From Triplophysa rosa (taxonomy: Eukaryota; Chordata; Actinopteri; Cypriniformes; Nemacheilidae), in contig NC_079900.1 of the NCBI RefSeq assembly GCF_024868665.1, positions 24,511,893 to 24,575,892 on the forward strand: a stretch of DNA of 64,000 nucleotides, given 5' to 3'. Both the position numbers and the translations under genes were made by a program. Positions 5,227 through 58,351 of this stretch are shown piece by piece (the first letter of the stretch is position 1; every line of letters begins with the position of its first letter). The notes below the pieces were generated by a model, which worked only from the letters and a program-made list of their open reading frames with translations, was not told the origin of the DNA and ran no database searches.

Positions 5227-6278
5227 TGTGATCGTAAAACACAGTAACCTCTCAGCAGGACTACGACCAGGCACCAACAAGTCTGGCCAAATGTCCTATT
5301 CTCAACACCTTCATCACTGACCAGTACAGATTCGGATACTCTCCCCTAGACTTCAAAGGAGGTTCTTGGGGGAGGACAGAACTGTTCACCAAAGTGAGAA
5401 AAGCCATGTGGCCCCCAGGGACTGAGAGCCTCAAATTCTTCCAAAAGAATGTCTCTTTCTCTTTCCTTAGCCACAAAAGACTGGTTTAAAGTGTATACAC
5501 ATGAATCTCCACATTGTATGCTTGTCTCTATGTTATTCTCCTTCACCTGTAACCTCAAAGGCATATGTGCTTAGTCGTATTCTGTGCATATTTACATTCT
5601 TGTCCAAACTACATGTCAATGTAATTGTAACCCCTTTATGTTTCATATCTACGTGTTTCCCTTTTCATGTCTTAGAATATGGTGTATAGCACAGTAATGT
5701 ATTTTATACCATACTCATTTTATTCTATTCTAAGTCTATTCCTGCTCCAAACTCCCAGGCGACCATAAATGCAAATGAGTTAGTGTGCTGGACAAAGAAA
5801 TATGTTTTCGCGCCCAAAACTATCTCATCACATTGGATCGCCCACCTTGGAGAGGCATGACGCCCTCTGTGTTAAAACATCTGAACACGCAGGAAAGCTC
5901 GCTCTTTTGTGTATGTTCGTTCGCTTGTGTGCGTTTGCACTCATGCGCATTCGCATTCTTTCAACCTCTCGAGACCTGTCTCTCCTCAGAGATAGCCTCT
6001 TCCAGCAGTTTGTGTCAGCTAAATCCAACGGACTCACGGCTCGCTCTGAACGCATCAGGACCCTTTGATACGCGCGCCAGTACGTGTCCCGAGAAACAAA
6101 GAAGCCAATGCAAGTATCTGAACTATTGCTAACCAGTTGCGTATAAGCTTTGCCCCTTTTTAAATATGGAGTTTGTCCTCGACTGTGTTAGCTAGTTGAT
6201 TTTAGTTCCCCCGTAGTGTAGATAAATAAACCACATGTGTATCCACGCTCGAATTGTTTCTGTGTTTATTTATCACAT
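5227..6278 (+). mobile_element. Possible solo LTR
   Basis: The segment starts TGTGAT and ends ATCACA, the short inverted ends expected of an LTR. Near the right end are a TATA-like TTTTTAAATATGG (about 6158) and, 60 bp on, a polyadenylation signal AATAAA (about 6224), followed by a 50-bp U5-like tail. No matching target-site duplication is visible and no second copy occurs in the window. The frames at 5785-6132 and 5802-6068 are not convincing genes. It could equally be unrelated sequence; boundaries are inferred. Confidence 0.35.
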
Positions 6279-6666
6279 ATCAATGTCACTTAAACTGCTT
6301 GATTTCTTTAAGATTTCTGAAGTGGTACTGTACTACAGTAAGAATATTGTTTTTCCAGGCCAGGGGAGTAATATTTCTTAGAGTTGATATACGATCTGCT
6401 GATCACTCGGTGGACGAGTGTATTTAGTTTGTCGCTGTTATTAGCTCTGCTGCATCAGGTAAAGTGTATAAAATAATTAATGGTTAATCACCATTAATTA
6501 TTTGTAGGTTACTGTGTTTAAACTCATAGTTTACCAGAAATACACTACAATAGTTTTAGTGAATTTTGAATGTGAAATTAACTGCTGTGCCAAGATGAAA
6601 GTTTGTTAGGAGAGCTGTGTGAAGAGTTTTGCAAAAGTCACCAAAGTATGGAGAAATGTGTCCTAC

Positions 6667-6860
6667 ACTGTAAAAATTAAAGGTACTTTGAGGAACCATT
6701 TGGGGTTCTTCACATTGCCACGCCGGCGGAACCCTCAGGGGAAACTCAAGGCACCGCTTAATGAAGGGCAGTTCTCTGAGGAACCCTCCAAGGCTTCTTG
6801 GGGATCCCTTTTATTAAAATGGTCTGGAACCATCTTGGGTGCTTCAACGCACCATTTCAC
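6667..6860. mobile_element. CACTGTAAAAA-ended MITE (partial)
   Basis: The terminus CACTGTAAAAATTAAAGGTA and the following GAACCATTTGGGGTTCTTCA and GGAACCCTC motifs match a very common fish non-autonomous DNA transposon pattern. The expected opposite end (TTTTTACAGTG) was not found downstream, so the right limit is arbitrary. Confidence 0.55.
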
Positions 6861-8164
6861 ATTTTATTTGCTATTCACAATATTTTAATAAGCAGAAATA
6901 CTAAATCAAATACAACAGTTTATTGATAAACAACAACAATTTACATTGAATAAATATTTACAGAATGGTCAATATTGAACATTACCATTCTAAATTCATG
7001 AAATCACATGTATAATTAATATTGTGTTGGTGATATTGTTATAAATGAAGTCTTTATCTTAACAAAACTAACCAAATAATTTGCCTTAATTTTAAATATA
7101 CTGTACATACAGAAATATTTCAGGTACTTTGTACAAATGTACAATTGTAAAAAAGTCCAGCAAAAAAGTAGTTTCTCATAGCAAGGCCTACACCCATGGT
7201 AAAGTTGTAATTTGCCAAAAAGCAAATCCTTGCGAGCTCGAGAAAACAATGCTGTTCTCTCCAAATGGGTTTCCTGCTATTACCAGGTGGTGTGAGGATC
7301 CATGTAGTCAAAGTCAAAATTATTTCTATAGTACATTTCACAATTTTGCATTGCTAAAGTATTTATGGCAAAAAGAGAACAGGAGCTGCGCCTGTTGGCC
7401 TTAGGTGTCCCAGGCAGTGCAAGGATGAGCATCAGGGGGGGCTGGGTCTGTTGGCCTTGGTTGCCCCTGCGAATAAGACATGGAGACCAAAAAGAGGGAT
7501 TTAGATAACGTCTCATAAAACATTACATTTAATCATTTAGCACATCACAAATTGGTTTACAAATGTAACAATAAATAAAATATTACAATGCCTGTAAGTC
7601 ACTGTTTTGGTCTATGGTTAAGGAGTAAAATAGGCTATTTATAGCACCAACTGTAATAATCCACTTTATTCAGATTTTCCATTGTCAATCAGTATTTTTA
7701 CATGTGCAAATATAACAAATAACATAATAATGAATATATCATAATAAACATAATACTTGCATTTTTTTGCTGCTCAACTGGAAAATACTGAAAATTCTGA
7801 GTTAAAAGGATAAAAACAGAACTGAATGATAAAAATATTTAATTACAGACAATTTATGTAACATGGGTGGGAAAACCATTCAACACAAACATCAATAAGT
7901 TAAAAAAGAGCTATACATTCACTAAAAGTGAACATAATAGCTAAAAGTGTCTAAAAGTCATTGTTTGTCATTTAACACTAACGTTACCCATTTAACGTTA
8001 GCCCCACAAGCTTCATCTTAACTTATTCGTTAGCATCTCTGCTAAAACATGCGCTGCCTACACTGTGTAAATAAATGGTTTAAACAGCCAAAAGCGGCCA
8101 TACAATTAGACGTGTCAGAGTATACATTTATATAAATAGTATATAGTTAGTGTATTTAAGTTAT
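6861..8164. other. AT-rich stretch without recognisable features
   Basis: Short open frames on both strands around 7016-7516 overlap one another and show no motifs. Part of this may be the interior of the MITE that begins at 6667. It also separates the LINE at 8165 from any reverse transcriptase it once had. Confidence 0.4.
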
Positions 8165-8183
8165 TTATATATTTTGACTTTAC

Positions 8184-8438
8184 TTACATCCAATGGGACA
8201 GTCGAGAGGTTGTTATAATTTTATAACAATATAAATAGTTGAGAGGATAATAAATAATAATTTCTGGGAGCATCTCTTTCAGTAGATTTGTAGGTATAGG
8301 GTCTAGCATGCATGTATAAAATAATTGCATTATCTCCTTAAGGGCGCTGTAGTTAGTTTGTTCAGCGGGTTTCACTTCTGATTGCATTGTTATAATTTTT
8401 TCTCTAATATCTTGGATTTTATATGTGAAGTTGTTCAT
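8184..8438 (-). pseudogene. LINE ORF2, start of reverse transcriptase region
   Basis: The frame holds SALKEIMQL, then LDPIPTNLLKEMLPEI, a segment that precedes the reverse transcriptase fingers in L2-like elements. It follows the endonuclease frame after a stop and a frameshift near 8438. Homology ends at about residue 55 of this frame; the rest is unrelated AT-rich sequence. Confidence 0.75.
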
Positions 8439-8542
8439 AAATCACTGTTATGCTGATATACAGGATCAGAAGTCACTGACGATTTATTTTTTGTTAATTT
8501 AGCCACTGTGTTAAATAAAAACCTAGGGTTGTGCTGGTTTTC

Positions 8543-9777
8543 TTATAGTGATGAAAAGTAGGCGGATCTAGAAGTTTTTAGGGCTTTCCTGTATTTTCGA
8601 ATACTATCCTTCCATGCTGTACGAAATACCTCTAATTTAGTTTTCTTAAAGTTGCGCTCCATTTTTCGGGCCACTTTCTTTAGAGCCTGAGAGTGTTCAT
8701 TATACCACAGTGTGGGACTGCCAATTTTAATCTTCTTTAAACGTAGAGGAGCAACTGTGTCTAGCGTTACCGAGAAGGTGGAATTAAAATTTTCAGTGGT
8801 AGTGTCAAGACCCTCAAAATTATTTCTCATGCTAGAGATTTGAGACAATTCGAGCAGATTATCGAGAAGCGCATCTTTGGTAGTTGAAGTTATTGTTCTA
8901 CCATATTTGTAACAAGGAGTTTTATTTGCAGCCGTAGGCCAGTCAAGCAAACATAATACCAGATAATGATCCGAAATGTCTTCAATCTGCTGAAGGATTT
9001 TAATGTCATCCACATTTATACCGTAAAACAGTATTAAATCTAAAGTATGATTACGAAGGTGAGTGGGTCCTGACACATGTTGACTAACGCCCATGGAGTT
9101 AAGAGTGTCTTTGAAAGCCATTCCTAAGGCATCTGTATCGTTATCTACATGGATGTTAAAGTCACCAACGACAAGGAGTCTATCTGCGGCCAGTACTAGT
9201 TCTGATAAGAACCCACCAAATTCTTTAATAAAATCTGTGTGGTGCCCTGGAGGCCTATATACAATAGCTAGAATAAATTTTTTAAATGTTTTATCCTTAG
9301 TATTAGGTGTTGAAACATGAAGTACCATGACTTCAAAATAATTGTATTTAGAGTTAGACTTCTGGGAAATGCTAAAAGAGTTATTGTAAAGTGCTGCGAC
9401 CCCCCCCCCCTGCCTTTTAGATGAGTCTCATGTTTATAATAATAATCTTGGGAGACAGATTCATTTAAAGTAATATAATCATCTTGTTTTAGCCATGTCT
9501 CTGTCAAACAGAGCATGTCTATTTTATGATCTGTTATCATATCGTTAACAAAACGTGCTTTGTTAGAGAGAGATCTAATATTTAGCAATCCGAGTCATAA
9601 CAGTTGATTATCTGTATTTTGTTCATGTTTAATTTGTTTAATATTTATTAAATTACTTTCAAGAGGTTTACGCATTATTTTATGTTTGCTAATCCGGGGG
9701 ACAGACACAGTCTCTATTTTGTGATGTTTGGGAGAACGGATTATTACATGTTGTACATTTTGTGTATTCTGCGACAT
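8543..9777 (-). pseudogene. LINE ORF2, endonuclease domain
   Basis: The N-terminal motifs LNIRSLSNKA and CLTETWL (9588-9480) and then VVGDFNIHVD, LDLIL and DISDHYLV (residues 54-62, 95-99 and 116-123 of the lower frame) identify the apurinic endonuclease that nicks target DNA. Three lesions break it. There is an in-frame TGA between NQLL and LGLLNIRS near 9595. A frameshift lies at an 11-C run (9400-9410) after KGRGGG. A TAA near 8543 follows SAYFSSL. The 11-C run is a homopolymer, so that frameshift could be an assembly artefact; the two stops are not. Confidence 0.85.
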
Positions 9778-16564: not shown

Positions 16565-17119
16565 TTAAAGAGTACATAACTAAGGATTTTTAAGGTCCTA
16601 CTTTGGTTTATGGAGTGTCCAACAACAAGTTTATGTACATAGGTGTAAAAACACAATTATTTCGTAATAATAGGCAATTATTCTTACCTTACTTCTTGAC
16701 TGACTCTCACATGATTTGTTCCGCGAGTCATCTGTCTAATCCTAAAACCTCCTTTCCGCTAGCCTAGTCTGATGTGATTGGTCAGATGGTCTAGTATGCT
16801 GTTATTGGTCTACAGCAAAATGAGGTTCACGAGCTACAGTGTTTGGGGGAGAAGAGTGAAGTTTTCACAGGCAGTCCTAGCAAAACGTAGGCGGGGACTA
16901 TACTGTATGTAGTGACGTAAATCCGTGGTGGTTTACGACTCGGACTAGGGACGACTCAATTACATGATTCAGATTCAACTCCCTTTTTTCCAAGCCAATA
17001 ACTTTGTTATTCATTCACTTTCGGATTTACAACTTTGCAGACTGCTTACTTTCAAACACGGCAATATTACACACTGCATGAAATGTAATTTTCTTGATCT
17101 TATGTTATGTACTCTTTAA
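16565..17119. mobile_element. 555-bp MITE with TTAAAGAGTACATAAC ends
   Basis: The left end TTAAAGAGTACATAAC is inverted exactly at the right end as GTTATGTACTCTTTAA. The outer TTA/TAA is typical of PIF/Harbinger-type insertion. No coding potential was seen inside. Confidence 0.82.
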
Positions 17120-19122: not shown

Positions 19123-19459
19123 TTAAAGGGACAGTTAACCCAAAAATGAAAATTCTGTCATCATTTGCTCTCCCTCAGATTGTTCCAAACCTGTATAAAT
19201 GTATTTGTTCTGCTAAACACAAAGAAAGATATTTGGAAGAATGTCACTTACCTAACAGATCTCATCCTCCATTTACTGCCATAGTATGGAAACTAAATAC
19301 TATGGAGGTCAATGGGGGATGAGATCTGTTTCGTTGCGAATATTCTTCTAAATATCTTCCTTTCCTTAGCAGAATGAAGACATTTCTACAGATTTGGAAC
19401 AATCTGAGGATGAGCAAATGATGACAGAATTTTCATTTTTGGGTGAACTGTCCCTTTAA
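19123..19459. mobile_element. Angel-type MITE
   Basis: The ends are TTAAAGGGACAGTTAACCC and GGGTGAACTGTCCCTTTAA. The next 40 bp (AAAAATGAAAATTCTGTCAT / ATGACAGAATTTTCATTTTT) also pair. Inner arms AGATCTCATCCTCCATTTAC and ATACTATGGAGGTCAATGGG pair too, so the element folds over most of its 337 bp. This is the Angel family described from teleosts. Confidence 0.92.
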
Positions 19460-31575: not shown

Positions 31576-32532
31576 TTAAAGCCACAATATGGAATAATTT
31601 TGTTATGAAATATCCAAAAATCACTTGCACAGTATGATATATTTCATGCAGTTGTGTACTTACTTTATCCCAAATGTTCCCAACAATGTGCAAATCCAGA
31701 GAAATTCCTATTTAAAATAATGGCCCATCCCTTGTCTCCCTTGTATTAATATCCGCTGCTCCGTACTACCCTGTTTCCGGTTGTAGAAACTACGGCAATT
31801 ACGCAAATGCGGAAGTGGTTATACAGCATCTGGGATGCAGCATCTGTTGTTCTGTTATTATGGATCACGATTACTCTTTGGCGAGTAAAGGAAACCCAAA
31901 AAAGCATAAACGTAGGCCAAATGAGGCAAGCAGGTTTATGGACAGACAGATTAATATCGGCATGGCATTTTCTAAATGGAGAGAGCTTCGCGACCAACTT
32001 GGACTCGACAGAGACTCCGCTCTCGCATGTGTTTTAATAGACAGGTAAGCAAATTGTTTTTTTATTGTACACGAAATACTCATGCACAGATTATTTGAAT
32101 AGTTATGAATGCAGTTACCCTATGAAATACAATATATGTCGCACAAAAATATGTAGCCAGTAACGTTACTTGTAAATACTGTGGGTTAATTCAACTTTAA
32201 TTTTTAAACGACGACTGTATGACTGTTTGAAACAGGTAATACTGTGTAGCATTATGCTACCAAATCAATTGACAAAGTCGAATATCAGTCGCGGGCTAAC
32301 GTAGCATTACATTCCACGTTTCTTGCAAGCTAATTCATTACGATGACATAAAATCAAATTCATTCATTACCTCATCCGTGAACATGATGGGCGATCTCCA
32401 TACGCCTCTGGATGGTGAAAACGGCATGTCCCATAATTCCACTCTCACGTCATTTAGCTTCGCCTTTTGTTGTTGTTTCGAAAGTGCACCATCTAGCGGT
32501 CCAAATATTCCATATTGTTGTAGCGGTTTTAA
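31576..32532 (+). mobile_element. TTAAAGCCACAATATGGAAT element with exon
   Basis: The left TTAAAGCCACAATATGGAAT and right ATTCCATATTGTTG ... GTTTTAA are imperfect terminal inverted repeats spanning 957 bp. The TTAA-type ends resemble the PIF/Harbinger-like MITEs here. It carries the exon-like frame at 31860-32044. No transposase core is present, so it is non-autonomous as read. Confidence 0.7.
31860..32044 (+). CDS. Transposon-borne first exon with WREL motif (function unknown)
   Basis: The ATG at 31860 (MDHDYSLASKG) opens 61 full codons that run to CAG|GTAAGC, a good splice donor at 32045. The frame stops right after the donor, which supports use of the donor. The sequence has a basic stretch (NPKKHKRRPNE) and then INIGMAFSKWRELRDQLGLD. 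The pattern A-[FY]-x2-W-R-E-L-[KR]-x3-G recurs in the exon at 45268-45420 in a different TTAAAGC-ended element. I do not know its function. The basic, helical look would fit a small DNA-binding or adaptor domain, but that is inference. No matching downstream exon is seen in the window. Confidence 0.5.
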
Positions 32533-44980: not shown

Positions 44981-45652
44981 TTAAAGCAACAACGAGCCGT
45001 TTTTCGACCTTAAAATAATCTCTCTAAAATTATTTTAGTGGTAGGACAACTCTTAACCGGACGAATTTTACTGCCGCTTCTACCTAAGCAGCCCTCTATC
45101 GGCTGAAATCACACTTGTAACTTTGGTTTACGGGTAGAATCCCAAGCCCCGCACATCATCTGCTTTACGGAATACGTCACGTTTTACTCATAGCCTGGGT
45201 GAAGTTAGCCAACATCTAACAATAAGACGATACCATGTAGTTCAACGCAAGTCTCCAAACCATCACCATGGCAGAGCCTGCAAAAAAACAAAGAGGCTTT
45301 TGTCGGAGGAAGCGAAGAAAAGAAAGAGAGAGAGTGATCGGACGGGCTTACACTCAGTGGCGTGAGCTGAAAGAGTCAACGGGTTGGAGATGGAGACCTA
45401 GTGGTCCTGCTACTGGATTTGTAAGTGTTATATGTAGGCTACATTTTTCTTACACTCCTGTACTTTTGAGCTTATTTGTTATTAGTTATTAGACATAGTT
45501 TCAAAACAACGTATCTGGGTATGCCGGTTACATCAACTTCTTGTGTATTGAGCTGACAACGGGGAAACTTTGCGACACACGTATCAGACAATTGCGCTTA
45601 TCAACCACATGGGGTAACCATACACCAAAACGGCTCGTTGTTGCTTTAAAAA
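44981..45652 (+). mobile_element. TTTAAAGCAACAACGAGCC element with exon
   Basis: The left TTTTAAAGCAACAACGAGCC and right GGCTCGTTGTTGCTTTAAAA are near-perfect inverted repeats of more than 20 bp. The TTAAAGC tip resembles the element at 31576 but the rest of the TIR differs. It carries the exon at 45268-45420 and no transposase core. Confidence 0.82.
45268..45420 (+). CDS. Transposon-borne first exon with WREL motif, second family member
   Basis: The ATG at 45268 lies in a good context (CACCATGGC). It opens 51 codons ending exactly at GTAAGT (45421), a consensus splice donor in phase 0. The peptide is strongly basic (KKQRGFCRRKRRKERERV), followed by IGRAYTQWRELKESTGW. The A-[FY]-x2-W-R-E-L-[KR]-x3-G pattern matches the exon at 31860-32044, at the same distance from the start and close to the donor. 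Function is unknown. The downstream exons, if any, are not in this element as it stands. Without splicing, translation would continue to a stop at 45492. Confidence 0.55.
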
Positions 45653-50287: not shown

Positions 50288-50854
50288 TTAAAGGGGTCAT
50301 ATGGCGCGAATACATGTTTTTGTGTCTTTGGTGTGTTATAAGTTGCCCATGCATGTATTAGACATGTAAAATTGCAAAAATGAAAGTGTGGGAACAAAAG
50401 ATGCATTCTTTCTAAAAGCGAATGCTCACTCAGACCTGCCTGAAACGCCTCGTGTAACCACACCCCCACTAATCTACGTCAGTTCCTGGTATGATTTGAC
50501 TAAGACCGCCCAAATGTGTACGCAAATAAGGTGGGCGTACCTGTCAGTACAATTGCTTTGGGACCTGATGTTCCAAATATGGTAAGAGGCATTACATCTC
50601 CATCACACGCTTGCAGTATTCGACCAATTACTACGCACTGGATAACTGGCCAATCACAGCACACCTCGCTTTTCAGAGCCATGAGCTTTGTTAAAAATCA
50701 GCGCGTTTCAGAGAGGCGGAGCAAAGAGGAGATACAAACATGCTCGGTCTGTGGAAAATACAGCGTTTTTGAACCTTAAATCGTGTGTACACATTGCGTT
50801 ACATCTAAAACAAACCATAATATTCGTTTTAGCCGTGTCATATGACTCCTTTAA
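50288..50854. mobile_element. MITE with TTAAAGGGGTCATATG ends
   Basis: The left TTAAAGGGGTCATATG is inverted at the right as CATATGACTCCTTTAA (one mismatch). It is 567 bp and of TTA/TAA type. The interior contains GGCGGAGCAAAGAGGAG and a CCACACCCCCACTAA segment common in such elements. The open frame at 50516-50779 is not considered a gene. Confidence 0.85.
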
Positions 50855-54393: not shown

Positions 54394-54600
54394 TTAGTCT
54401 CTCCGCAAAGACTTGTTCAAGGAATCCGCATTGAAATGAAGCGAACAAACGCTCAATGTGTTCCCCACGTGAGCTGGAACGTCTTTAAAAATGAACTTCA
54501 ACCACGCATTCCTACTGTCGGAATCCGAAGGAAGGTTATGCAGCGACTGTGTTCTTCCACAACCAGGCACTGCACAATACTTTGCGATCTTTAACGGCAT
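54394..54600 (-). CDS. THAP zinc-finger domain, single short frame
   Basis: From the ATG at 54600 the 68-residue frame has the C2CH THAP signature: YCAVPGC (Cys 9, Cys 14), NAWLKFIF (Trp 33), and VCSLHF (Cys 52, His 55). A Pro 24 follows the first pair. THAP domains bind DNA and occur in P-element-type transposases and their domesticated relatives. A TAA follows at 54396 after the last THAP residues, and no catalytic domain is nearby. This is thus a THAP-only remnant or a first exon whose donor is lost. It lies within a likely transposon. An open frame extends upstream to 54777, but the family-like part begins at this ATG. Confidence 0.75.
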   Translation of the reverse strand: MPLKIAKYCAVPGCGRTQSLHNLPSDSDSRNAWLKFIFKDVPAHVGNTLSVCSLHFNADSLNKSLRRD

Positions 54601-54720
54601 GATACTTACACTCGCTCTATCTGGTTCTGTGCAGCTTGTGTTCAGTACTGTCATGCGCGACACCTGTGGGCAGGGCTCGAGAAGTAGGCGTTGATATTCT
54701 TCTGTGGAGGCGGAGTTCAA

Positions 54721-57170: not shown

Positions 57171-57362
57171 GCCCTCACATCCCATTTTTCCGGGGCATGT
57201 TTTAGGGCATGTTTTAGGATGTATTGCTACATATCTTTAGCATGAATGAAAATATGTAATTTAAAGGAGATGATGAGATCATTATTAATACGCAATCATT
57301 GGTTATTTAAACAGCGTTTAAAAATAATAATGAATAAGACAACAACTACACAAACACTGTTT

Positions 57363-57462
57363 NNNNNNNNNNNNNNNNNNNNNNNNNNNNNNNNNNNNNN
57401 NNNNNNNNNNNNNNNNNNNNNNNNNNNNNNNNNNNNNNNNNNNNNNNNNNNNNNNNNNNNNN
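57363..57462. other. Assembly gap (100 N)
   Basis: A run of exactly 100 Ns, the conventional size for a gap of unknown length. The true centre of the foldback element may be longer. Confidence 0.99.
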
Positions 57463-57612
57463 AACGTCCGACGCTGTCACCTACAGGTCGAAAACAAGTT
57501 GAAATACACCCGGTTACAATCCTCCTCTTTCAAAACAAATTTACGAGCCTTGGTGCGGACACCTCTCACTGGAATGTTATAGACTGGGTGAAAACTCTGA
57601 AAAACATCAGGT
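57463..57612 (+). CDS. Exon-like frame in the foldback core (unknown)
   Basis: A 49-codon frame runs out of the gap (RPTLSPTGRKQVEIHPV ... WVKTLKNIR). It ends at CAG|GTAATC, a possible splice donor, with the stop immediately after it. I do not recognise the protein. It is the only candidate coding sequence within the element, and it is cut by the gap, so its start is unseen. Confidence 0.35.
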
Positions 57613-58351
57613 AATCTGCATGGCCTCTCAGCCTATCCTCTCTCATATATTGAATACATTGTATAATTACTTATTTACTTCTTTACTTATTTAATAGATG
57701 CTTTATTTATTAATTTAATCACACGATTATTCATTTAAACCTGTTTGTTTATTCAAACAGTGTTTGTGTAGTTGTTGTCTTATTCATTATTATTTTTAAA
57801 CGCTGTTTAAATAACCAATGATTGCGTATTAATAATGATCTCATCATCTCCTTTAAATTACATATTTTCAATTCATTTCATTCAATACATCCTAAAACAT
57901 GCCCTAAAACATGCCCAGGAAAAATGGGATGTGAGGGCACGGTCAAAAGTTCAACGCGACGTGGGCGGTCCCTCACTACGGGGGCGGATACGGTCAAAAG
58001 GTCAATGCGATGTGGGCGGATACGGTCAAAAGGTCAACGCGATGTGGGCGGTCCCTCACTACGTGGGTGGTCCGGAAGTAATTCAAACCCCCCCGCAAAG
58101 GTCAAAGGTCACCATCAATCATTTTGACACTATGACCCGCATATATACTACTAAAATATAACCCACCACTGTATCTCTCAAAGAGATGCATCAGTTCTAC
58201 AACACTTTTATGGTGGTATTTATTTATTGTTTTAAATATATTTTATTTAATATTCATAATGAAACTTAATAGTGCCCAGGATACTCAAAATTAAACCTTA
58301 TGATTGGATTTTTTTTACTAAATTATCTGCTGCCATCTATGGCAGAAAGAT

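Follow-up and report, generated by a model that had tools for sequence, protein, structure and literature searches.

A decayed WREL exon in a TTAA-flanked element of Triplophysa rosa, a probable remnant of a Kolobok-like transposase gene

Introduction

Transposons of the Kolobok superfamily insert at TTAA and encode a DDE transposase with C/DxxH. They have tips of the form 5'-RR...YY-3', by which the consulted part of PMC9587614 sets them against piggyBac. A THAP domain is usual in the superfamily (PMC6004289, excerpts), and the Kolobok0 lineage combines a DDE transposase with the protein KolX (PMC9587614, same part). Here we describe a 661 bp element (element B, positions 44985-45645) in a 64,000-nucleotide stretch of the Triplophysa rosa genome (NC_079900.1, 24,511,893 to 24,575,892, forward strand; hereafter the window), which carries a decayed copy of an exon with the motif WREL. 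We consider this exon to be, most probably, what remains of the exon that opened the coding sequence of a Kolobok-like transposase (DDE type, TTAA-inserting), left in a non-autonomous, internally deleted transposon. An initial annotation had put the locus forward as a candidate for an undescribed system. The TTAA sites, the RR/YY tips and a linked DDE transposase instead fit the Kolobok superfamily as described (PMC9587614, PMC6004289, PMC7016195), and the element most likely adds a new member to a known class of mobile elements and does not represent a new system.

Results

Elements A and B share a coding exon

Element B is flanked by TTAA target site duplications (44981-44984 and 45646-45649) and bounded by terminal inverted repeats, AGCAACAACGAGCCGTTTT at 44985-45003 and its counterpart on the minus strand at 45627-45645, with all 18 of the tip bases compared identical. 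A separate inverted-repeat measurement, in which the TTAA is counted in, gave arms of 28 nt with 96% complementarity. Element A (949 bp, 31580-32528, plus strand) lies between TTAA sites at 31576-31579 and 32529-32532 and has an imperfect inverted repeat. Both window elements therefore show the TTAA duplication, and both have tips of RR/YY form (AG...CT in B, AG...TT in A); tips of the piggyBac type, other than RR/YY, were found in neither. The tips have AGC in common and are unlike beyond it. The 7-mer TTAAAGC alone occurs in the window at chance level (15 observed versus 13.3 expected).

In element A the WREL exon is open (31860-32044, plus strand, 185 nt, phase 2) and is followed by a GTAAGC donor from 32045. 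The exon of element B starts with an ATG at 45268, and its motif is likewise followed by a GTAAG donor, the predicted consensus site GTAAGT at 45421-45426. The ATG lies 283 bp from the tip in B and 280 bp in A. Local alignment of the two motif regions scores 62 (shuffle mean 22.8, sd 4.2), a value reached by none of 20,000 shuffles. When all 2,759 six-frame pieces from the window are ranked by their match to A, the B piece comes first apart from A itself, and the runner-up scores 35. BLASTP of the window B copy against A gives E 2e-5 with 8 of 16 residues, and the B family consensus scores 98 against A over 46 columns. These data support the view that A and B carry a homologous coding exon, with the family pattern INIG-x-A-[FY]-x2-WREL..., phase 2 and equal distance from the tip. 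The initial annotation had stated that the inverted repeats differ from those of the element at 31576, that the same A-[FY]-x2-W-R-E-L motif occurs in both and that ATG and donor lie at comparable positions; on all three points our measurements agree with it, and the alignment statistics disfavour a chance match.

The window copy of the exon is decayed

From ATG to donor the exon of element B measures 153 nt (45268-45420, plus strand), compared with 188 nt in its family. The family exon, as seen in other copies in the host genome, is longer (...RINIGRAYTRWRELKEATGCKTDGDLAVLLLD); in full it reads MAEPAKKPKRVLSEEAKKRKRESDRTLARSRINIGRAYTRWRELKEATGCKTDGDLAVLLLD plus two bases, followed by GTAAGT. 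Relative to its own family consensus the window copy has deletions of 1, 29 and 5 nt, and therefore much of the peptide originally read from it is out of frame and the phase of the exon is altered (phase 0, compared with phase 2 for the family and for A). The family frame is retained only at 45268-45288 and 45337-45388, the latter including the piece IGRAYTQWRELKESTG (45337-45384). Most of the basic stretch, and most of the end TGWRWRPSGPATGF, lie in shifted frames. Of the exon that had been reported as preserved, the ATG, the motif and the GTAAGT donor are indeed present, whereas the basic stretch is mostly frame-shifted.

The family is abundant and its exon shows no codon-level constraint in subfamily B1

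Searches of the host genome (685 Mb) gave at least 150 matches to the B exon (150 of 1,581 candidates scored) and at least 151 to the A exon (150 of 1,496 candidates scored). A search pattern that allowed five mismatches located both ends for 25 of the 34 distinct B loci, and all 25 are TTAA-flanked on both sides. These copies are 601-2,497 bp long and have their ends in common. One locus with a B-family copy (L013) also has two long open frames of 1,007 and 461 aa at ∼5540-9660 (minus strand), which look like a gypsy-type retrotransposon.

In subfamily B1, to which the window copy belongs, the exon is open and in frame in only 5 of 28 copies, and the ratio of non-synonymous to synonymous changes (N/S) is 3.75 (2.96 expected). 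In subfamily B2 the exon is open in 19 of 32 copies with an N/S of 2.37 (3.01 expected), a value biased by the choice of these copies by protein match. Codon position 3 is the least variable, not the most. The codon changes thus give no sign of purifying selection in the subfamily of the window. The proposal of a shared, selected exon architecture is supported as regards the shared, homologous exon but not as regards selection. Variation within the exon is lower than in the flanks, both in B1 (0.029-0.047 versus 0.092) and in B2 (0.017-0.023 versus 0.055). The loci were selected with exon-containing queries and the alignment of the flanks is less sure, so we draw no firm conclusion from this contrast.

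The WREL domain precedes a DDE transposase in two fish protein models

Pfam searches with the exon peptides gave no hit for the WREL domain, searches of PDB sequences and viral contigs returned nothing useful, and the A exon alone yielded six candidates in the protein database, none of them significant. A transposase core query, checked against the protein database, matched 771 proteins with E values no higher than 1e-5 (best 75% identical). A profile of the exon peptides matched two of 240 proteins, P0175 and P0215, with the next at E 1.3. P0175, a hypothetical protein of Pimephales promelas, has the WREL domain at its N-terminus (69% to B, 43% to A), followed by a DDE transposase. It has no THAP hit and scores 25.5 bits against PF20700 (cut-off 26.5). 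In P0215 (Salarias fasciatus) the WREL domain is followed by THAP and then by PF20700. The DDE columns are present in both proteins, their DDE core and cysteine columns align with those of PF20700/THAP transposases, and the predicted model of P0175 resembles DDE transposases. When P0175 was compared with loci L001-L066 and the window, all matches, among those listed, fell within residues 1-68. The exon, which the initial annotation could not assign to a known protein, can be placed in part: it has no Pfam hit, begins P0175 and precedes THAP and DDE regions in P0215.

The structure model of the WREL domain has three helices (mean pLDDT 77.6, pTM 0.39), and Foldseek found no match to it below E 5. 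The domain is predicted to be small, basic and helical, and perhaps serves in DNA binding or dimerization. Our literature search for 'WRELR' together with 'transposase' gave no match; we make no claim that it is new to the literature.

Host loci with transposase matches

P0175 has at least 94 matches in the host genome (65 of 1,421 candidates scored) and P0215 at least 73 (47 of 4,664). Four THAP-type loci reached in this way are disfavoured as parent, as the stretches read contain no sense-strand WREL exon. A WREL match near one of them (C11) proved to be an A-type element inserted in antisense near the THAP exon of the transposase locus (L072, 918-1269). By-eye comparison of the matches listed gave no WREL and DDE pair that shares a strand, lies no more than 15 kb apart and has WREL as the upstream member. 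No full-length parent of the copies of 601-2,497 bp was found; the longest frame of the 2.5-kb copy (L016) is on the opposite strand and no DDE was seen in it, and a 441-aa open frame at locus C245 turned out to be an assembly gap.

A second transposase core query gave 35 host matches (45 of 45 candidates scored), the weaker of which sit in THAP-type loci. Upstream of the core at locus C7 a pyrimidine-rich acceptor leads into an exon that opens with C TAT GAG and reads YERGPVTSTPVK. This resembles the sequence directly after WREL in P0215, YEVTTVASTPMK (4 of 5,000 shuffles; the piece was picked by eye ahead of the test). The exon opens with one codon-completing base and therefore fits a phase-2 donor. 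No match to THAP came from the 1.65 kb read ahead of the DDE core.

Other TTAA-flanked sequences in the window

A 329-bp element at 19123-19459 is TTAA-flanked and has near-identical ends (AGGGACAGTTAACCCAAA, 17/18), which resemble the AGGRR tips given for T2-MITEs (MITE, miniature inverted-repeat transposable element). An inverted repeat at 57261-57856 (∼596 bp overall) contains four nested TTAA pairs, each matching at 18/18, and TTAA-flanked candidates with inverted ends lie at 16565-17119 (15/18) and 50288-50854 (14/18). A THAP-like frame at 54424-54642 (minus strand) matches residues 277-357 of P0215 (32% over 81, E 5e-4) and is possibly from another Kolobok-like element.

Discussion

The ends, the TTAA sites, the copy number, the loss of frame and the family reading frame, together with two annotated fish proteins in which WREL is joined to DDE and one host locus where the intron phase matches, point to a plain account of an exon common to two transposon families, in which the first exon of a transposase gene was retained. 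The exon is apparently part of a larger gene. We infer an autonomous parent in which the tip would be followed by ∼280 bp of 5' sequence, the WREL exon ending two bases past a conserved Asp codon, an intron, an exon starting x-YE...STPxK and then several DDE exons. Internal deletion would have taken the DDE exons and spared both ends; exon 1 would have been kept because it lies within ∼470 bp of the tip and internal deletions spare the ends. The short forms would have moved in trans and then decayed.

Several observations weigh against this account. No host locus was found at which one element carries both a WREL exon and DDE exons. At C9, C11, C5 and C4, four DDE loci of the THAP type, the 2.4-8.7 kb read ahead of the THAP exon contain no sense WREL exon, which argues against these loci as parent, and there is no significant WREL exon in the 1.65 kb read at C7, where it may lie beyond that stretch or have been lost. 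The WREL domain is present in only two of the 240 proteins, 120 of which were limited to 462 aa in length, and the query that found P0175 was a composite that included the exons. Both P0175 and P0215 may be fused models: WREL joins P0175 within a stretch that aligns to the end of a THAP domain, P0215 bears an extra N-terminal tract, and the DxxH of P0175 has R in place of H. Finally, in both subfamilies the exon is about half as variable as its flanks or less, a contrast that is not expected from plain neutral decay, unless the choice of loci or the alignment of the flanks accounts for it, and that we cannot fully explain.

Alternatively, the WREL exon would belong to a second, accessory transposon gene comparable to KolX of Kolobok0 and not to the transposase, with P0175 and P0215 as fused models, an explanation that we regard as rather unlikely. 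It would accommodate the position of the join in P0175 and the four THAP-type host loci, and WREL copies are so numerous that one may precede a transposase by chance; against it, WREL stands upstream of DDE in one model in two different fish, and a phase-2 YE...STP exon precedes the DDE core at C7. It is very improbable that the elements are piggyBac-type MITEs with an unrelated exon. piggyBac likewise inserts at TTAA, but the tips (5'-AG and CT- or TT-3') have the RR/YY form that is contrasted with piggyBac (both points from the consulted part of PMC9587614), and the linked transposases are of the PF20700/THAP type. A chance match between unrelated peptides is scarcely credible: the BLASTP alignment does extend over no more than 16 residues in the window copy, but no shuffle reached the observed score, the family consensus aligns over 46 residues, and the position and, in the family, the phase are the same.

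It is also conceivable, though decidedly doubtful, that WREL is an undescribed helical domain that replaces THAP in one Kolobok-like lineage and whose many short copies, each retaining an ATG exon close to the tip and a functional donor, can splice onto host exons or yield transposase-repressing WREL peptides. If so, the lower variation of the exon would be a trace of its function. Under the transposase-exon reading that we prefer, a small domain for which Pfam returned nothing may still replace THAP in one transposase lineage, and abundant tip-proximal exons with donors are a possible source for exon capture.

Among described elements, T2-MITE/Xmix of Xenopus, a non-autonomous Kolobok group, shares with A and B the TTAA target, the AG tip, the high copy number and the lack of autonomy; on the consulted excerpts of PMC6004289, A and B differ from it in their tip (AGC... 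compared with AGGRR in T2-MITE) and in their coding first exon, which is followed by a donor. Kolobok0, as described in the consulted part of PMC9587614, has the same TTAA target and RR/YY ends, and DDE with DxxH is found in relatives; the exon seen here is WREL, and no search was aimed at the KolX ballast protein. The PF20700/THAP transposases of fish and invertebrates have the same DDE core and cysteine columns as the WREL-carrying proteins, whereas 238 of the 240 proteins lack a significant WREL hit and many have a THAP domain.
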